Source: a bacterium | Lineage (GTDB): Bacteria > ARS69 | DNA length: 6,949 bases | Reading direction: 5' to 3' | Assembly: GCA_025774865.1 (NCBI GenBank) | Contig: JALGZO010000505.1 | Coordinates: 1-6,949, forward strand | Shown here: in pieces, positions 820 to 6,949 of the stretch | How positions within the stretch are numbered: the first letter of the stretch is position 1 | Layout of the letters: each line of letters starts with the position of its first letter | Program-made: the position numbers and the translations under genes | Notes under the pieces: model-generated | The model's database searches: none | Told to the model about the DNA's origin: nothing | What the model saw: only the letters and a program-made list of their open reading frames with translations

Positions 820-1593
820 ATGTCCAAGTGCAGGTGGTTGGCAATTCCGAGTGTTCTGGCCCTGAGCATCGCCTCCGGCTGCGGCGGTGGAGGTGACGAG
901 TCCGAGAGTCACACCGCTCCTGCCGCAAGTGATGCCGGCTCCGGCGCCGGCTTCGGCACCGCCAGCATCACCGGCAAGGTCACGTTCGATGGAGCCGCCC
1001 CCGAGGCCAAGTCGATCAGAATGAACGCCGACCCCGTCTGCTCCCTCAAGCACCCGGACGGCCGGGAGGACTACGATTACGTCGTGGGCGCCGACGGCGG
1101 CCTCAAGTGGACCTTCGTGTACGTCAAGGAAGGGGTGGCCGGAAGCTACGAACCGAGCGGCGAGGTCGTTCTGGACCAGAAGGGTTGCACCTTTGAGCCG
1201 CACGTCTTCGGCATCATGGCCGGACAGGATCTCAAGATCCTCAACAGCGACGAGACGCTTCACAACGTCCATGCGCTCTCGAACGAGTCGCGCCAGTTCA
1301 ACCTCGCGATGCCCCGGATGGGGATGGAACTCAAGCAGAAGTTCCGCAACCCCGAGGTCATGGTGCGGATCAAGTGCGACGTGCATCCCTGGATGGAGTG
1401 CTGGGCCGGCGTGCTCTCACACCCCTTCCACAGCGTCACCAGCGAAGACGGCAGCTTCAAGATCGACCGCCTCCCGGCCGGCACCTACACGATCGAGGCC
1501 TGGCACGAGAACGGTGGGACCCAAACTCAGACCGTCACCGTGGGTGACGGAGAGTCCCAAGAGATCACGTTCTCCTTCAAGTCATCGGTGTAA
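820..1593 (+). CDS. Lipoprotein with cupredoxin-like copper-site motif and carboxypeptidase-regulatory-like domain
   Basis: A 257-aa protein. The ATG at 820 is chosen because GAGGAG lies at 805-810 and because it opens a lipoprotein signal: a K/R-containing N-terminus, a hydrophobic core, then IASGC with Cys21 as the likely lipidated residue, followed by GGGGDE. The frame is open further upstream, but that part overlaps the VOC gene and is not protein-like. After a low-complexity linker (residues 22-45), a beta-rich domain (about 46-200) carries C74 and C123, HNVH (148-151), then C186-D-V-H189-P-W-M192 and H201. The spaced His/Cys/His/Met set resembles type-1 copper ligands of cupredoxins, although the C-x2-H-x2-M spacing is shorter than in plastocyanin or azurin. 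The C-terminus, with EDGSFKIDRLPAGTYTIEAWHE, is a carboxypeptidase-regulatory-like beta-sandwich. Such proteins are commonly annotated near respiratory cytochromes in environmental phyla. A periplasmic electron carrier or copper-binding role is inferred. The gene converges on the cytochrome operon. Confidence 0.9.
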   Translation: MSKCRWLAIPSVLALSIASGCGGGGDESESHTAPAASDAGSGAGFGTASITGKVTFDGAAPEAKSIRMNADPVCSLKHPDGREDYDYVVGADGGLKWTFVYVKEGVAGSYEPSGEVVLDQKGCTFEPHVFGIMAGQDLKILNSDETLHNVHALSNESRQFNLAMPRMGMELKQKFRNPEVMVRIKCDVHPWMECWAGVLSHPFHSVTSEDGSFKIDRLPAGTYTIEAWHENGGTQTQTVTVGDGESQEITFSFKSSV

Positions 1594-1714: not shown

Positions 1715-1735
1715 CCGCTACGGCTGCCGTAGCGG
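1715..1735 (-). terminator. Perfect 9-bp hairpin containing the stop codon of the last cytochrome gene
   Basis: CCGCTACGG (1715-1723) and CCGTAGCGG (1727-1735) are exact reverse complements around a 3-nt loop. Reading on the minus strand, the hairpin encodes the last residues and the TAG stop of the diheme cytochrome gene, and is followed by TTTCGC, a weak U-tract. It lies in the junction between convergent genes. It probably terminates the cytochrome operon or protects its 3' end; a clear T-run is lacking on either strand. Confidence 0.5.
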
Positions 1736-3241
1736 AGGCTCGGGCCCCGGCTCGGCGCGCCGGAGCCGACGCAACAGAAGCGCTTCCGCGCCCAGCCCGA
1801 GGAAGATGGCGACCAGCGGCCATGCGAACACGGTGCGCGGCGTCTCGGGCTCGAGCAGCAAGTAGTACCAGGCAGTGACGGCCTTGCGGTTGCCTTGTTC
1901 CTCGTTGGCGCCATCCCACACGTTGAACGCGATTGGCAGGAATGCTCCCGGCTCGAATTGCACGTCCTGCTCGTGATCCGTCGTCATCGCGCGACGGAAG
2001 ATCACCTGGTAGCGACCGTCGTCGTAGGCGCCCTGCGCGTTGACGCCCGACTCCTTCCGCTCGACCTCATTGGCTCCGTGAGCAAGCAGGTTGTCGGCCG
2101 TGTTCATGAGGGCGCTCCACCGCCAGTAGTCCACGGGGTGACGATCATCGCCCATGAGAAAGTAGGGCTTCTCGCCGCCCTCGGCCGGTCGTGCCGGAAA
2201 CTGGATCGCGGCTGCGTCCGAGGGCAGTCCGTCGCCGCCGGCGTTCTCCGTGCGGTCGTCCCAGATGAGCTGGACCGCGACCTCCTCGCCGTCGTAGAGC
2301 GCCTTCGCCGACACGTCCAGATTGACGAGCGTGAAGAGCCGTGGCTTCTGGATGATCTGCGGGGACAGCTTGAAATCGACCATGGGAGCCTCCGCCCACT
2401 CCGGCGCGGCCGGATCGGCGGGAATCGCGTCGACTCGGACGCCACGGACGACGATGTCGCGAACGGGCTCTCGGCCGACGCTGATCACATAGTTCGTGAG
2501 GTGCCACGCGTCCTCAGACGAGACCGACGGCGCGTACGACGGCATCGGCGTGCCGTTCAGCCCCGTCACGAACGTCCGGTACACGTCGCCCGGGGCACGG
2601 CCGCCCCGGAACGTCCAGGGCTGCATCATGTCGACGGGCCAGGTCCGCTCGTTCCATTCATCCTTGAGCTCGGCGGCGGACGGGCCGTTCCCACGTCCCT
2701 GCTCACCGTGGCACTTCGCGCACTGCATTTCCCCGTACACCTGGCGACCGCGCTCGACGCTCTCCTCGCTCGTGGGGATCGGCTCTCCGATCACCAGCTG
2801 TTCCTCGGGAGGGAAATGTTCGAAGTCCTCCGAGAACGTCTTGATGTAATGAACGACCTGCCAGATCTGATCCTCGGAGAGAAGCCCCTCCCACGCGGGC
2901 ATCGACGTTCCCGGCAGACCGAGCCGGACGGCTTCGTAAAGGTCATGATCGGTCGGGAGCTCACCTCCGAACGTGTGGCGAATCTTGTACGAGCCGGCGA
3001 TGAAGTCGCGGGGTTTGGGATAGACACGGTCGGCCATCGTGCCCTTGCCGTCTCCCGTGTCGCCGTGGCACTGCGCGCACGACTCCTGGTACACGCTCTT
3101 GCCGGCCTCGATCTGCTCGGGCGTCGCCGTCACGAACTCGACACCGCCGAGCTCATAGCCGAGCTCGTTGACCTCGGCCGCCGCCGACACCGCCAGAAGC
3201 GAGAAGGGTCCGGCGACGAGCGCGAACCGGAGCGAGGACAT
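1718..3241 (-). CDS. Secreted diheme cytochrome c fused to an ethylbenzene-dehydrogenase-gamma-like heme b domain
   Basis: A 507-aa protein. The ATG at 3241 is preferred over an upstream TTG at 3274: it has a strong SD (GGAGGGGGG, 5 nt upstream), it begins a Sec signal peptide (SSLRFALVAGPFSLLAVSAAA, cleavage near residue 22) and it overlaps the stop of the previous gene as TGATG. Two class-I cytochrome c modules follow: CAQCH at 55-59 with M114 (GTSMPAW), and CAKCH at 174-178 with M233 (GTPMPSY). Residues about 268-465 resemble the ethylbenzene-dehydrogenase gamma / DOMON-type heme b domain: AIQFPA, PYFLMGDDRHPVDYWRW and FNVWDGANEEQGNRKAVTAWYYL. In that family heme b is held by Met and Lys; M363 and K453 are the candidates here. 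A C-terminal membrane helix (about 470-489) followed by RRLRR anchors it, leaving the heme domains in the periplasm. No molybdenum-enzyme partner is visible. It is the last gene of the operon and likely an electron entry or relay component. Confidence 0.93.
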   Translation of the reverse strand: MSSLRFALVAGPFSLLAVSAAAEVNELGYELGGVEFVTATPEQIEAGKSVYQESCAQCHGDTGDGKGTMADRVYPKPRDFIAGSYKIRHTFGGELPTDHDLYEAVRLGLPGTSMPAWEGLLSEDQIWQVVHYIKTFSEDFEHFPPEEQLVIGEPIPTSEESVERGRQVYGEMQCAKCHGEQGRGNGPSAAELKDEWNERTWPVDMMQPWTFRGGRAPGDVYRTFVTGLNGTPMPSYAPSVSSEDAWHLTNYVISVGREPVRDIVVRGVRVDAIPADPAAPEWAEAPMVDFKLSPQIIQKPRLFTLVNLDVSAKALYDGEEVAVQLIWDDRTENAGGDGLPSDAAAIQFPARPAEGGEKPYFLMGDDRHPVDYWRWSALMNTADNLLAHGANEVERKESGVNAQGAYDDGRYQVIFRRAMTTDHEQDVQFEPGAFLPIAFNVWDGANEEQGNRKAVTAWYYLLLEPETPRTVFAWPLVAIFLGLGAEALLLRRLRRAEPGPEPPLRQP

Positions 3242-4005
3242 CAGTGCCCCCCTCCGCCGCCGTGCTCCCCCCAAGTGCGCGGCTCCGATCCCGACGCCTC
3301 GTAGATGTAGAGGATGACCTGCCAGATCTCTTCCTCGGTCAGGAAGTCCTGCCAGGCGGGCATCGCCGAGTTCCAGGGGGTGGCGCCCCTCGGCAGGCCC
3401 CGTCCGCCCGTCGCCACGCGCCAGAACACGTACGACTCTTCGAGCTGCGAGAGCGTCCCGCTATCGCGGAAGTTCGTGGGCAGCGGATTGAAAGCCTCCG
3501 CGAAGTGGCCCTTCCCCGTCAGGTGATCGCCGTGGCAGAACATGCAGTTCTCGAAGTAGACCCGCTTCCCGGCCTCGAGGTTGTCTGCGAAGTGCGCCTC
3601 CGCTTCGTGCTCCCTCAGGGGGTTCTGGGTCTTCAACACGTCGAAGTCCCGTCCCTGGAACTTGAACGTGCTCGGCGGCTCGGGATGGATCGTCCGGCCT
3701 TCGAACGGAGGTTCGAGCGTCGGGCGCACCTTCTCGAACGTGGCCCAGCCCACGAGCAGCGGCACGCAGGCGAGCACGATCAGTCTCGGCACCGCGAGTC
3801 GATCCTCGGTGAGGAGGGCCAGGATCGGCGCCTGCACGGCTCGGAAGCGACTTTCGTCGGCCATGAGGTAGACGAGAATCGACACACCCGCGATCGCCAT
3901 GTAGAGCGTCATCACGGAACCGGGGATCGGCGGCTGCACCAGTCGGAGCAGACCCCAGACGATCCCCCACCCGAGCAAGGCCAGCGGAAGTGTCAGCTTC
4001 TGCAT
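3241..4005 (-). CDS. Membrane-anchored monoheme cytochrome c
   Basis: A 254-aa protein with ATG start 6 bp after the stop of the diheme cytochrome gene; a GAGAGG in the end of that gene can act as SD. Three hydrophobic segments (about residues 5-23, 29-48 and 73-90) precede a periplasmic cytochrome c domain with C154-M-F-C157-H158 and a likely distal ligand M215 in NSAMPAW. The final helix pattern (LTEEEIWQVILYIYEA) is typical of class-I cytochromes c. The protein ends in an unusual HGGGGGH tail, whose codons also form the SD for the next gene. It probably passes electrons between the periplasmic diheme proteins and the CydA-like membrane subunit; this is inferred from context. The three-helix N-terminus is not one of the common respiratory cytochrome folds that I recognise. 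Confidence 0.92.
   Translation of the reverse strand: MQKLTLPLALLGWGIVWGLLRLVQPPIPGSVMTLYMAIAGVSILVYLMADESRFRAVQAPILALLTEDRLAVPRLIVLACVPLLVGWATFEKVRPTLEPPFEGRTIHPEPPSTFKFQGRDFDVLKTQNPLREHEAEAHFADNLEAGKRVYFENCMFCHGDHLTGKGHFAEAFNPLPTNFRDSGTLSQLEESYVFWRVATGGRGLPRGATPWNSAMPAWQDFLTEEEIWQVILYIYEASGSEPRTWGEHGGGGGH
3247..3255 (-). promoter_or_regulatory. Strong ribosome binding site inside the preceding coding sequence
   Basis: GGAGGGGGG on the minus strand lies 5 nt before the ATG at 3241, which decides that start over the TTG at 3274. The same bases encode the last glycines of the upstream cytochrome, so translation of the two genes is likely coupled through the TGATG overlap. Confidence 0.7.
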
Positions 4006-4011
4006 GACTCG

Positions 4012-4911
4012 TCAGCGCCTCTCGATCCACTCGATGGCCCACCACGCGCCTGCGTTGAAGACGAAGATGATCGAGATCAACTGGAGCATCGGGTGACCGG
4101 ATGCGCGTCGGATTCGTTCCCAGAACGTTCGCCCCGCCCCCGTCCCGCCGAGCCGCACGACGTATCGAACGAGCTGATCGACTTCCTGGGGCTTGAGATC
4201 CTCGGCGAACGTCGTGGGCATGAGACCGGCGGCGTAGCCTTCTGAAATGACCGCGTTGGGGTCGAGAATCGACTGGCGGATCTCCTCCTCGGAAAGCCGC
4301 TGGGCGACCTGCGTCAGCGGAGGTCCGACCTGGCGTGCGTCGCCGTGAACGTCGTGACAGGTGACGCACCCGTGCAGGTTCAGGTACGCGACTTCCGGCG
4401 ATGTTCCCCCCACCGCGGTCGCTGCCTTCGCGGCCGCGAGCTCCACATCCTCTTGGGTCACCTCGACCGTGACCTCGCCGCCCAACGACTGCAAGAACGC
4501 GATGACCGCCTTCAACTCCGTGGCACTCATGTCCGCCGGCGGCAGATTGGCCGCGGGCATGATCGGCGGATACTCGTTGACCACGAACGCGGCCGGCTGC
4601 AGGAGTGCCTCGGTGAGGTACGCCTCCGCGGTCACGTCGGGAATCCGCGTGGCCGCGCGCCCACCCACGCCCCGCAGGTCCGGCCCACGTTCGTTGCCCG
4701 TCTCCGTGATCTTGTGACAGATGAGGCACCCGCCCTTGTTCTTCACGAGCTCCTCCCCCATCGAGACGAGCTCGGCCGGCTCGTTCTCGGGAGTGATCTC
4801 GAGCTCCGCCGGCGGATGCTGCTCCGACTGCGTCACCGTCTGCCCTATGTACATGTAGAACAAATCGATCGCGAGCACGAAGAGCAGGATCCGAAGGAAG
4901 ACCTTCTTCAT
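4012..4911 (-). CDS. Membrane-anchored diheme cytochrome c
   Basis: A 299-aa protein. Its ATG at 4911 overlaps the TGA of the cydA-like gene (TGATG), with GGAGAAGGCGG upstream as SD. An N-terminal helix (about residues 5-24) leads into the periplasm. The first heme site is C62-L-I-C65-H66 with M118 (YPPIMPA) as a likely distal ligand. A linker rich in E, A and V (about 145-170) follows, then C182-V-T-C185-H186 with M231 (AGLMPTTF). A second hydrophobic segment (about 275-295) near the C-terminus gives a second anchor. Both modules look like class-I cytochrome c domains, and their tandem arrangement resembles CcoP/FixP in general design but without the CcoP sequence features. Being directly coupled to the CydA-like gene, it is the best candidate for the immediate electron donor to that subunit (inference). 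Confidence 0.93.
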   Translation of the reverse strand: MKKVFLRILLFVLAIDLFYMYIGQTVTQSEQHPPAELEITPENEPAELVSMGEELVKNKGGCLICHKITETGNERGPDLRGVGGRAATRIPDVTAEAYLTEALLQPAAFVVNEYPPIMPAANLPPADMSATELKAVIAFLQSLGGEVTVEVTQEDVELAAAKAATAVGGTSPEVAYLNLHGCVTCHDVHGDARQVGPPLTQVAQRLSEEEIRQSILDPNAVISEGYAAGLMPTTFAEDLKPQEVDQLVRYVVRLGGTGAGRTFWERIRRASGHPMLQLISIIFVFNAGAWWAIEWIERR

Positions 4912-6659
4912 CAGACCGCCTTCTCCTTGCGCTCGGAGCGCAGTGCGAGGCCGAAGACGGCGGCGATCATCAGGAAGAACGCGAGGACGATGAGGGATAC
5001 GGTCATCGTCGCGCTCCCGTGGGTCGGGATGAACGCCTCGGGGCTCTGGTCCCGCATCACACCGTAGACGTGCCAGTACTGCCGGATGCCCGACCGGATG
5101 TAACCCATCAATCCCATCAACCACGTGAAGGTGACCGCGAGGAAGAAGAGAACGTACTGGGACCGCGGCGGCATCTTCCCCCACTGGATCTCGCCGAGGG
5201 ACCTCGCACCCTTGTAGATCGGAACCTCGAGCACGAGGAAGATCACGATGAAGGAGAGTACGGCGAGCACTTGATACACGGAGAATTCGATCCGGATCGC
5301 CGCGGGCACGAAATACCCGTAGACTCCGTAACCGATCACGATGCCGGACGTTCCGAGAAGAAGCAGCGCCTGGACTGCCTTTCCGATCTTCGCCCATGGC
5401 ACGACCGCTTCCTTGTTGCCGCGCCGGTAGAGCATGAAGTTCAGAAACGTGAACAGGATCATCATGTTCACGGCCGTGTTCTTCGCGGACATGACGCCGA
5501 GCACGCCTAGCCGGGGGTGGTGGGCGCCTCCCATCTCGCGCATCTCCGACACCGTCGCCAGGATGCTGTGGGGCGTGGCCCAGATCGCGAATCCCGTGGC
5601 GATCACCGTGAGTACGATCGCCTGGGAGAACCGGTAGCGCTCCGCGCCCGGGATGCGTCCCATGGCCAGCCAGAGATACAGATTGAATCCCAGGAAGAGC
5701 GACCCGATGAGGATCGCCTGAATGATCCAGAGCTGCGCGAACGACCCGCCCATCATCGAGACACCCATCTGCTGGCTGTACGCGTAGATCTCGGTGCCGA
5801 AGTAGTAGCCGGCGAACGGCAGCGGAATGAACGCGGCGACGGCGATGAAGCTTCCGATGTACCCCATCCAGTCGAACTGCGCGCGCTCCTCGTCCGTTTC
5901 CGCGCATAGAAACCGGAACGCCGCGTAGGCGCCCACGACGGCCCCGCCAAAACAGATGTTCGCGATGAAGCGGTGAATGAAGAGTGGAATCACCGCGAAG
6001 CTCGTCCACGCGTTCCAGCGGTCGAGCACGGTGATCCCGAGATCACGCCCCTCGACCCCGCCCGGCGTCATCGTGTAGCCGACCCAGGAGCTCGTCACGA
6101 ACAGGATCACGATCCCCACAACGTTGACCATGAAGCCGATGAAGAGGTGCCACCCCTTCCTCTCGCGGAGAGCCTCCCAGCTGTACCAGTACAGGTAGGC
6201 GAAGAACACCTCCAACAGGATCATCGCCACGTAGAAGAACCAGGTGGGCTCGAACACCGTCATCAGGTGCGCGACGAGTCGCGGGTAGAGCGCGAAGAGC
6301 GCGACGAGGAGAACGCCGCCCAGAACCGCCGTGAGCGTGTAGCTCACCGCCAGCAGCCGCGTGAACTCCTTCGCCAGGTCATCGAAGCGCCGGCTCTTCT
6401 TCACGACGCCGATGGTCTCCGTGATGATGACGAAGATCGGGACGCCGAGGACGAAGGCGGCGAACATGAGATGCCACTGGGCGATCACCCACACGAACAC
6501 CCGGCTCCCGATGACCGGGAAAGCCCGGTAGTCGGCCGGACCCAGCAGGTGATTGAAACCCTGGATCAGGAAGTACGTGGCCACCAGAATCACCGAGACC
6601 TTGGCCAGGCCCTTCCGGACGCCGCTGAGGGCCGCTATCGTACCTTCGAGCGTCGCCAC
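4911..6659 (-). CDS. CydA-like membrane subunit of the cytochrome bd superfamily, non-canonical
   Basis: A 582-aa protein with GTG start, supported by AGGGGG at 6665-6670, 5 nt upstream. About 13-14 membrane helices are visible, more than the nine of CydA: one extra N-terminal helix (about 20-38) and extra C-terminal ones (about 460-480, 500-520, 550-573). Aligned by eye with E. coli CydA, QWHLMFAAFVLGVPIFVIITE gives H63 for H19, LLEVFFAYLYWYSW gives E150 for E107, LFIHRF gives H229 for H186, and NTAVNMMILF gives M399 or M400 for M393. So the heme-binding core looks kept. E99 aligns with F142, and K183 with L226. The GRQPW signature and Q-loop linked to quinol oxidation are not found. A C-terminal GYIRSGIRQYWHVYGVMRD (R522, R526, H530, R536) is conserved-looking. 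No cydB is present downstream; cytochromes c follow instead. It is therefore likely the catalytic subunit of a bd-superfamily enzyme taking electrons from cytochrome c. Substrate is unproven. Confidence 0.9.
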   Translation of the reverse strand: MATLEGTIAALSGVRKGLAKVSVILVATYFLIQGFNHLLGPADYRAFPVIGSRVFVWVIAQWHLMFAAFVLGVPIFVIITETIGVVKKSRRFDDLAKEFTRLLAVSYTLTAVLGGVLLVALFALYPRLVAHLMTVFEPTWFFYVAMILLEVFFAYLYWYSWEALRERKGWHLFIGFMVNVVGIVILFVTSSWVGYTMTPGGVEGRDLGITVLDRWNAWTSFAVIPLFIHRFIANICFGGAVVGAYAAFRFLCAETDEERAQFDWMGYIGSFIAVAAFIPLPFAGYYFGTEIYAYSQQMGVSMMGGSFAQLWIIQAILIGSLFLGFNLYLWLAMGRIPGAERYRFSQAIVLTVIATGFAIWATPHSILATVSEMREMGGAHHPRLGVLGVMSAKNTAVNMMILFTFLNFMLYRRGNKEAVVPWAKIGKAVQALLLLGTSGIVIGYGVYGYFVPAAIRIEFSVYQVLAVLSFIVIFLVLEVPIYKGARSLGEIQWGKMPPRSQYVLFFLAVTFTWLMGLMGYIRSGIRQYWHVYGVMRDQSPEAFIPTHGSATMTVSLIVLAFFLMIAAVFGLALRSERKEKAV

Positions 6660-6664
6660 CCTTT

Positions 6665-6670
6665 CCCCCT
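6665..6670 (-). promoter_or_regulatory. Ribosome binding site deciding the GTG start of the cydA-like gene
   Basis: AGGGGG on the minus strand lies 5 nt before the GTG at 6659. No ATG occurs in this frame before the first conserved helix, so this SD is the main support for the start. It overlaps the TAG (6669-6671) that ends the alternative upstream reading frame. Confidence 0.55.
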
Positions 6671-6949
6671 ATTGCGCGGACTCGGCGGCGCCTTCGGCTC
6701 CGTGATCTTGTTCAGGCGCGCCGCCGGGCTGCTCGGCAACGACCGCGGCGACCGGCGGGCGGGACGCGCGCCCGGGCGGGAACCCGCCGGAGGACGCCGC
6801 GTACCCGAAGATCACTCGCGTACCGTGACGCGTCGCGTCGGAGGCCGTAGGCAAATCCGAGGATCAATCCGAACACGACGTGCCCGATGAAACTCGGGAA
6901 CATCTCGAGCGCGTTGTCCAACGACCAGCGACTTCCCACCGCGTCGCCC
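6669..6949 (-). CDS. Small membrane protein, C-terminal part, with apparent frameshift (cut by right edge)
   Basis: From the right edge, one minus-strand frame reads through a helix, MFPSFIGHVVFGLILGFAYG (about 6902-6843), that looks like the last helix of small membrane proteins with an H-x-VFG-x-x-LG-x-x-YG ending (DUF6789-like; tentative). That frame continues to a TGA at 6712 as an Arg-rich, unconvincing tail. The +1 frame, open from just after a TGA at 6864-6866, instead gives a Pro/Ala/Glu-rich tail ending in AEGAAESAQ with a TAG at 6669-6671, touching the SD of the cydA-like gene. Over about 43 codons the +1 frame has roughly 91% G/C third positions against 72% for the first frame, whereas the helix is coded in the first frame. 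A frameshift (real or sequence error) near 6825-6860 is likely. If so the gene would sit only 9 nt before the cydA-like start, within the same operon. Confidence 0.5.

Follow-up and report, generated by a model that had tools for sequence, protein, structure and literature searches.

The window analysed here is one whole contig of 6949 bases from a draft genome (92.65% complete, 8.3% contamination). Four consecutive genes lie on its minus strand and encode, in this order, a CydA-like protein, a diheme cytochrome c, a monoheme cytochrome c and a diheme cytochrome c with an EB_dh domain. A cupredoxin-like gene runs convergently with this operon.

4911–6659, minus strand: CydA-like (bd-like, very probably OR-N type) membrane subunit of 582 aa with 14 predicted helices and a GTG start
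4012–4911, minus strand: diheme cytochrome c, membrane-anchored, 299 aa; two CXXCH; Cytochrom_C E=7e-16
3241–4005, minus strand: monoheme cytochrome c, N-terminal hydrophobic stretches, 254 aa; one CXXCH; Cytochrome_CBB3 E=4.5e-10
1718–3241, minus strand: diheme cytochrome c with an EB_dh heme-b domain ('alternative NxrC'); two CXXCH; EB_dh E=1.5e-20
820–1593, plus strand: cupredoxin-like protein with a CarboxypepD_reg domain

Translational coupling is likely, as the genes overlap at two junctions: the diheme start with the CydA-like stop at 4911, and an ATG at 3241 with the 3' end of the monoheme gene. This ATG is the probable start of the 'alternative NxrC', whose longer ORF reaches 3274. 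The protein carries a C-terminal hydrophobic segment and matches TIGR03477 with E=9e-37, under that model's cut-off. Altogether, the operon partners of the CydA-like protein carry five CXXCH sites for heme c and one heme-b domain.

Upstream of the CydA-like gene, positions 6660–6949 hold partial minus-strand frames, and a hydrophobic stretch, MFPSFIGHVVFGLILGFAYG, breaks off between frames. A frameshift or the end of another gene is possible there. This upstream partial ORF has no clear homologue among the relatives' loci.

Family, fold and placement of the CydA-like protein

The 582-aa protein was originally taken for a CydA homologue, and the likeness is far above chance. It matches PF01654 (Cyt_bd_oxida_I) over residues 52–573 with 57.8 bits against a cut-off of 26.2 (E=9.8e-16), and a sequence search with it recovered the solved CydA chains. 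An AlphaFold2 model built with 25 relatives has a pLDDT of 81, a pTM of 0.83 and 14 long helices. The structural comparison with solved bd oxidases that had been called for gave VIA Z scores of 28.8–31.9 to ten CydA chains over roughly residues 44–582, with 31.9 to E. coli CydA for this predicted model. The matches ranking after CydA are the NrfD-type subunits of alternative complex III at Z 22.6. Its membership of the CydA superfamily is practically certain.

CydA has nine helices. The 14 predicted in the model leave five extra ones, in agreement with the four or five expected: one at the N terminus, and four that separate the TM6 and TM8 counterparts.

In the tree, the OR-N-like rows stand apart from the eight quinol-oxidase (qOR) rows with support of 100/100, and the window sequence falls on the Nitrospinota side, clustering with MAG sequences labelled Gammaproteobacteria, Myxococcota and Planctomycetota. 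This tree is midpoint-rooted with long branches, which makes its finer groupings tentative, and it was drawn without OR-C rows and labelled OR-N references. Nearly all Nitrospinota CydA are OR-N (PMC10839748). The defining feature of OR-N, a CydA homologue without the quinol site, is found in the window protein, and we assign it to this type with high confidence.

Several features have precedents. The bd-like oxidase in a cluster of Nitrospina, Kuenenia and Nitrospira has 14 helices with conserved heme ligands, helices in place of the Q-loop and none of the quinol residues (Lucker et al. 2013, PMC3578206). Such bd-like proteins have since been classed as the OR-N family (PMC10839748, PMC12342949, PMC13189123), and OR-N enzymes are described in PMC10839748 as thought to use cytochrome c, with none characterised. 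Hence the pattern of a different donor is already published for such proteins, chiefly those of nitrite oxidisers and anammox bacteria, and the window protein adds one member from a genome without a recognisable nitrite oxidoreductase.

The Nitrospira moscoviensis cluster (bd-like_3, alt_NxrC_2 and two c-type cytochromes) and its Nitrospina and Kuenenia equivalents have four gene types in common with the window, as well as the approximately 14 helices, the retained heme ligands and the lost Q-loop and quinol residues (PMC3578206, PMC6606698). The home genome differs from theirs in having no detected NxrA/NarG, a haem-copper oxidase and one CydA-like gene. The OR-N enzymes in general share the CydA homologue, the missing quinol site, the missing CydB and the presumed cytochrome c link, whereas the CydAA' partner proposed for Nitrospinota was not found in the home genome. 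Compared with E. coli CydAB, the CydA core fold and the positions of H19, E107, H186, R448 and W451 are shared, but the Q-loop and CydB are missing, Tyr replaces E99, a non-Glu residue replaces E445, and five extra helices and c-type cytochrome partners are present.

Heme ligands and the quinol site

Residue conservation was counted over 51 relatives, and the 42 of the window type were scored separately from the 706-aa paralogues.

6471–6473, minus strand: H63, counterpart of CydA H19 by profile alignments
6231–6233, minus strand: Y143, at the position of heme d ligand E99 by alignments; Tyr in 51/51 relatives
6210–6212, minus strand: E150, counterpart of CydA E107 by profile alignments; 49/51 relatives
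5973–5975, minus strand: H229, counterpart of heme b558 ligand H186 by profile alignments
5751–5753, minus strand: M303, invariant Met among the relatives, alternative candidate heme ligand
5490–5492, minus strand: M390, invariant Met among the relatives where helix C begins, another candidate heme ligand
5460–5462, minus strand: M400, most plausible candidate for M393; 37/42 in the window type, register ambiguous
5091–5093, minus strand: S523, at the Glu445 position in the Arg-x-x-Trp register of the alignments
5070–5084, minus strand: R526-Q-Y-W529-H530, what is left of GRQPW plus an invariant His, by alignments and the relatives' conservation

Three of the ligand assignments made by eye hold in every profile alignment: H63 for H19, E150 for E107 and H229 for H186. 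H63 and H229 are kept in all 51 relatives and E150 in 49. The heme d ligand E99 had been aligned by eye with F142, but the alignments put it on Y143. F142 lies eight residues ahead of E150, matching the E. coli spacing between the two glutamate positions. This spacing is 8 in E. coli and 7 in all the other CydA and OR-N-like rows, because E. coli CydA has the Leu101 insertion in its E99 helix (PMC6853902).

The original prediction also saw no GRQPW motif. A remnant of it does exist, as Arg448 and Trp451 have aligned counterparts in R526 and W529. Both are almost invariant among the 51 relatives, and the following H530 is invariant. Meanwhile, the loss of Glu445, which in E. coli binds heme b595 (PMC6853902), was overlooked by eye. 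Its place is taken by S523 in the register anchored on Arg-x-x-Trp and by L517 in other alignments, so Ser523 or another non-Glu residue stands there. The S523 position is Glu in 7/9 paralogues of the 706-aa type.

The counterpart of M393 was given as M399 or M400. M399 is not conserved, with 15/42, and M400 is plausible but unproven, with 37/42 in the window type and Leu in the 706-aa paralogues. M400 lies about ten residues into a predicted helix running in the right direction. The alignments disagree over which helix is the TM7 counterpart: the global profile alignment places M393 in helix D and the mixed MAFFT alignment in helix E, the local segment profiles give no significant match, and the fragment model divides its answer between helices C and A. 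Judging from sequence conservation, M400 is a plausible Met ligand of the H229 heme, with the invariant M303, M390 and H530 as rivals. M518 is likewise invariant among the relatives.

The Q-loop is absent as claimed, its region being replaced by helices, and the alignment of the CydA-like protein with quinol oxidases shows no counterparts of K252, E257 and R391. L226 does occupy the K183 position as predicted, but it has little diagnostic value, since most of the sampled quinol-oxidase rows have Gln or Glu there. A canonical quinol oxidase was ruled out by the absence of the Q-loop, the ligands Glu99 and Glu445 and CydB. A normal cytochrome bd that oxidises quinol in a strongly diverged pocket would agree with the CydA family match and fold, yet is barely credible with the Q-loop, the K252 and E257 counterparts and CydB all missing and c-type cytochromes in the operon.

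Gene neighbourhood and home genome

The relatives' loci comprise 27 genome contigs, and since these are mostly MAGs, their taxon labels are perhaps imperfect. The labels are Rokubacteria, Gemmatimonadota, Myxococcota, Pseudomonadota, Planctomycetota (including Scalindua rubra), Nitrospirota and Nitrospinota. The order of CydA-like, diheme c, monoheme c and c/EB_dh genes is conserved among the 27 wherever the contig is long enough, with few exceptions. In Scalindua rubra (L039:6686-9232), the CydA-like protein and the diheme c share one 848-aa frame. A Rhodocyclales MAG (L023:4875-7622) has a 915-aa fusion of the two through a poly-Lys linker, and this Lys run could be a sequencing (indel) artefact.

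A homologue of the cupredoxin-like protein adjoins the cluster in many relatives. It stands beside the cluster together with COX2 in 12/27 loci (L021, L022, L024–L031, L034 and L040), 11 of which also have COX1; in the other, L026, the contig ends. In L021 and L022 the cupredoxin and COX genes are upstream on the opposite strand. In Rokubacteria, Gemmatimonadota and Myxococcota the cluster comes with haem-copper oxidase subunits II and I, and the neighbouring COX1 proteins retain the HPEVY and HH motifs of the aa3-type oxidase. The stand-alone OR-N complex thus occurs outside the nitrifiers, where it frequently shares an operon with an aa3-type haem-copper oxidase.

A few loci deviate. One carries the whole four-gene cluster in two tandem copies (L019:489-5975 and 7968-12887) with a multi-CXXCH FixO-like protein between them, and one copy's CydA-like protein is 718 aa, its helices C and D being separated by a long insertion. 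Another (L011:799-2325, minus strand) encodes a 508-aa CydA-like protein containing one CXXCH, possibly of the OR-C type. Many of the Nitrospinota genomes searched (e.g. L012, L093–L096 and L104–L106) have two distinct OR-N-like proteins of about 660 aa and 710 aa, and the latter type is without H381, N398 and M400 and has mostly Glu at the S523 position. This complementary residue pattern would fit a two-subunit CydAA' enzyme.

In the home genome, 92.65% complete, there is no PF02322 match for CydB. Only one PF01654 match is present, and a second CydA as the Nitrospinota-type CydAA' partner was not found. None of its six molybdopterin matches is of the NxrA/NarG type, although absence from a draft genome is no proof; as candidates for nitrite oxidoreductase they were rejected, being NapA, PhsA-like, Fdh-like, two NuoG-like and FdhF/YdeP-like. 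The genome has one cytochrome b and one COX1, the latter on the same contig as an NrfD gene of the alternative complex III kind. EB_dh is confined to the bd-like cluster.

Electron donor and acceptor

A different electron donor, as had been proposed, is well supported. It follows from the lack of the Q-loop, K252, E257 and R391, the lack of CydB, the four-gene cytochrome linkage across phyla and one credible fusion. The CydA-like protein is thus probably coupled to c-type cytochromes. Altered proton handling, the other part of that proposal, is also likely, since most of the E. coli bd proton path lies in CydB (PMC6853902), for which the home genome gave no match. The pattern itself was published before, and several of the residue assignments behind it were wrong or incomplete.

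Our favoured reading, which we hold to be likely, makes the protein the membrane component of a bd-like complex of the OR-N type, coupled to c-type cytochromes. Electrons would pass between the periplasmic c hemes and the b-type hemes in the CydA-like subunit, replacing quinol at the Q-loop. H63 and H229 would bind the b-type hemes, H229 together with a Met or His. A small oxidant, O2 first, would most likely be reduced at the H63/Y143 heme, which would make the complex a cytochrome c-linked O2 reductase without CydB.

The acceptor is less secure than the donor. As judged from sequence, we put O2 in this role at just under an even chance. O2 reduction is favoured by the near-invariance of the core residues, and it is disfavoured by the lost glutamates, the adjacent haem-copper oxidase and the cluster in anammox bacteria. 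Glu99 and Glu445, both O2-site residues, are replaced, and the aa3-type oxidase beside the cluster in 12/27 relatives has apparently intact active-site motifs. The home genome's own haem-copper oxidase, encoded on one contig with the NrfD gene, and its missing CydAA' partner count against O2 as well. Anammox bacteria are strict anaerobes. They nonetheless retain the cluster (PMC3578206), as also seen here in L039.

The same observations suit an electron-transfer module that joins the periplasmic c-type cytochromes to the membrane, with the haem-copper oxidase as the true oxidase, and we regard this as a real though lesser possibility. The module perhaps reaches the quinone pool via a new site in reverse or forward flow. 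Besides the accompanying haem-copper oxidase subunits and the persistence in the anaerobic anammox bacteria, the reverse electron transport proposed for the bd-like cluster (PMC3578206, PMC6606698) and the NrfD-type subunits as the next structural match argue for it. However, no quinone site was found, and a mere wire needs none of the almost invariant H63, E150, R526 and W529. A bd-derived, complex III-like version, a cytochrome c-linked electron-transfer complex that is no oxidase and in which the invariant Tyr replaces the glutamate ligand of heme d, appears unlikely.

Another small molecule such as NO, peroxide or a nitrite-derived species might instead be reduced or detoxified at the H63/Y143 heme. 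The invariant Tyr at the distal-ligand position, the loss of both Glu ligands and the occurrence of the cluster in anammox and nitrite-oxidising bacteria would be compatible with this. It is a residue-level argument, however, and no NO or peroxide metabolism genes were seen in the flanking genes examined, so we consider it improbable.

In nitrite oxidisers of global importance, the OR-N bd-like enzymes are the proposed terminal oxidases. For O2 reduction by the present subgroup, concrete tests are offered by the invariant Tyr143, the absent Glu445, the invariant His530 and the candidates for the sixth ligand of the H229 heme, together with the recurring linkage to a haem-copper oxidase in non-nitrifiers.
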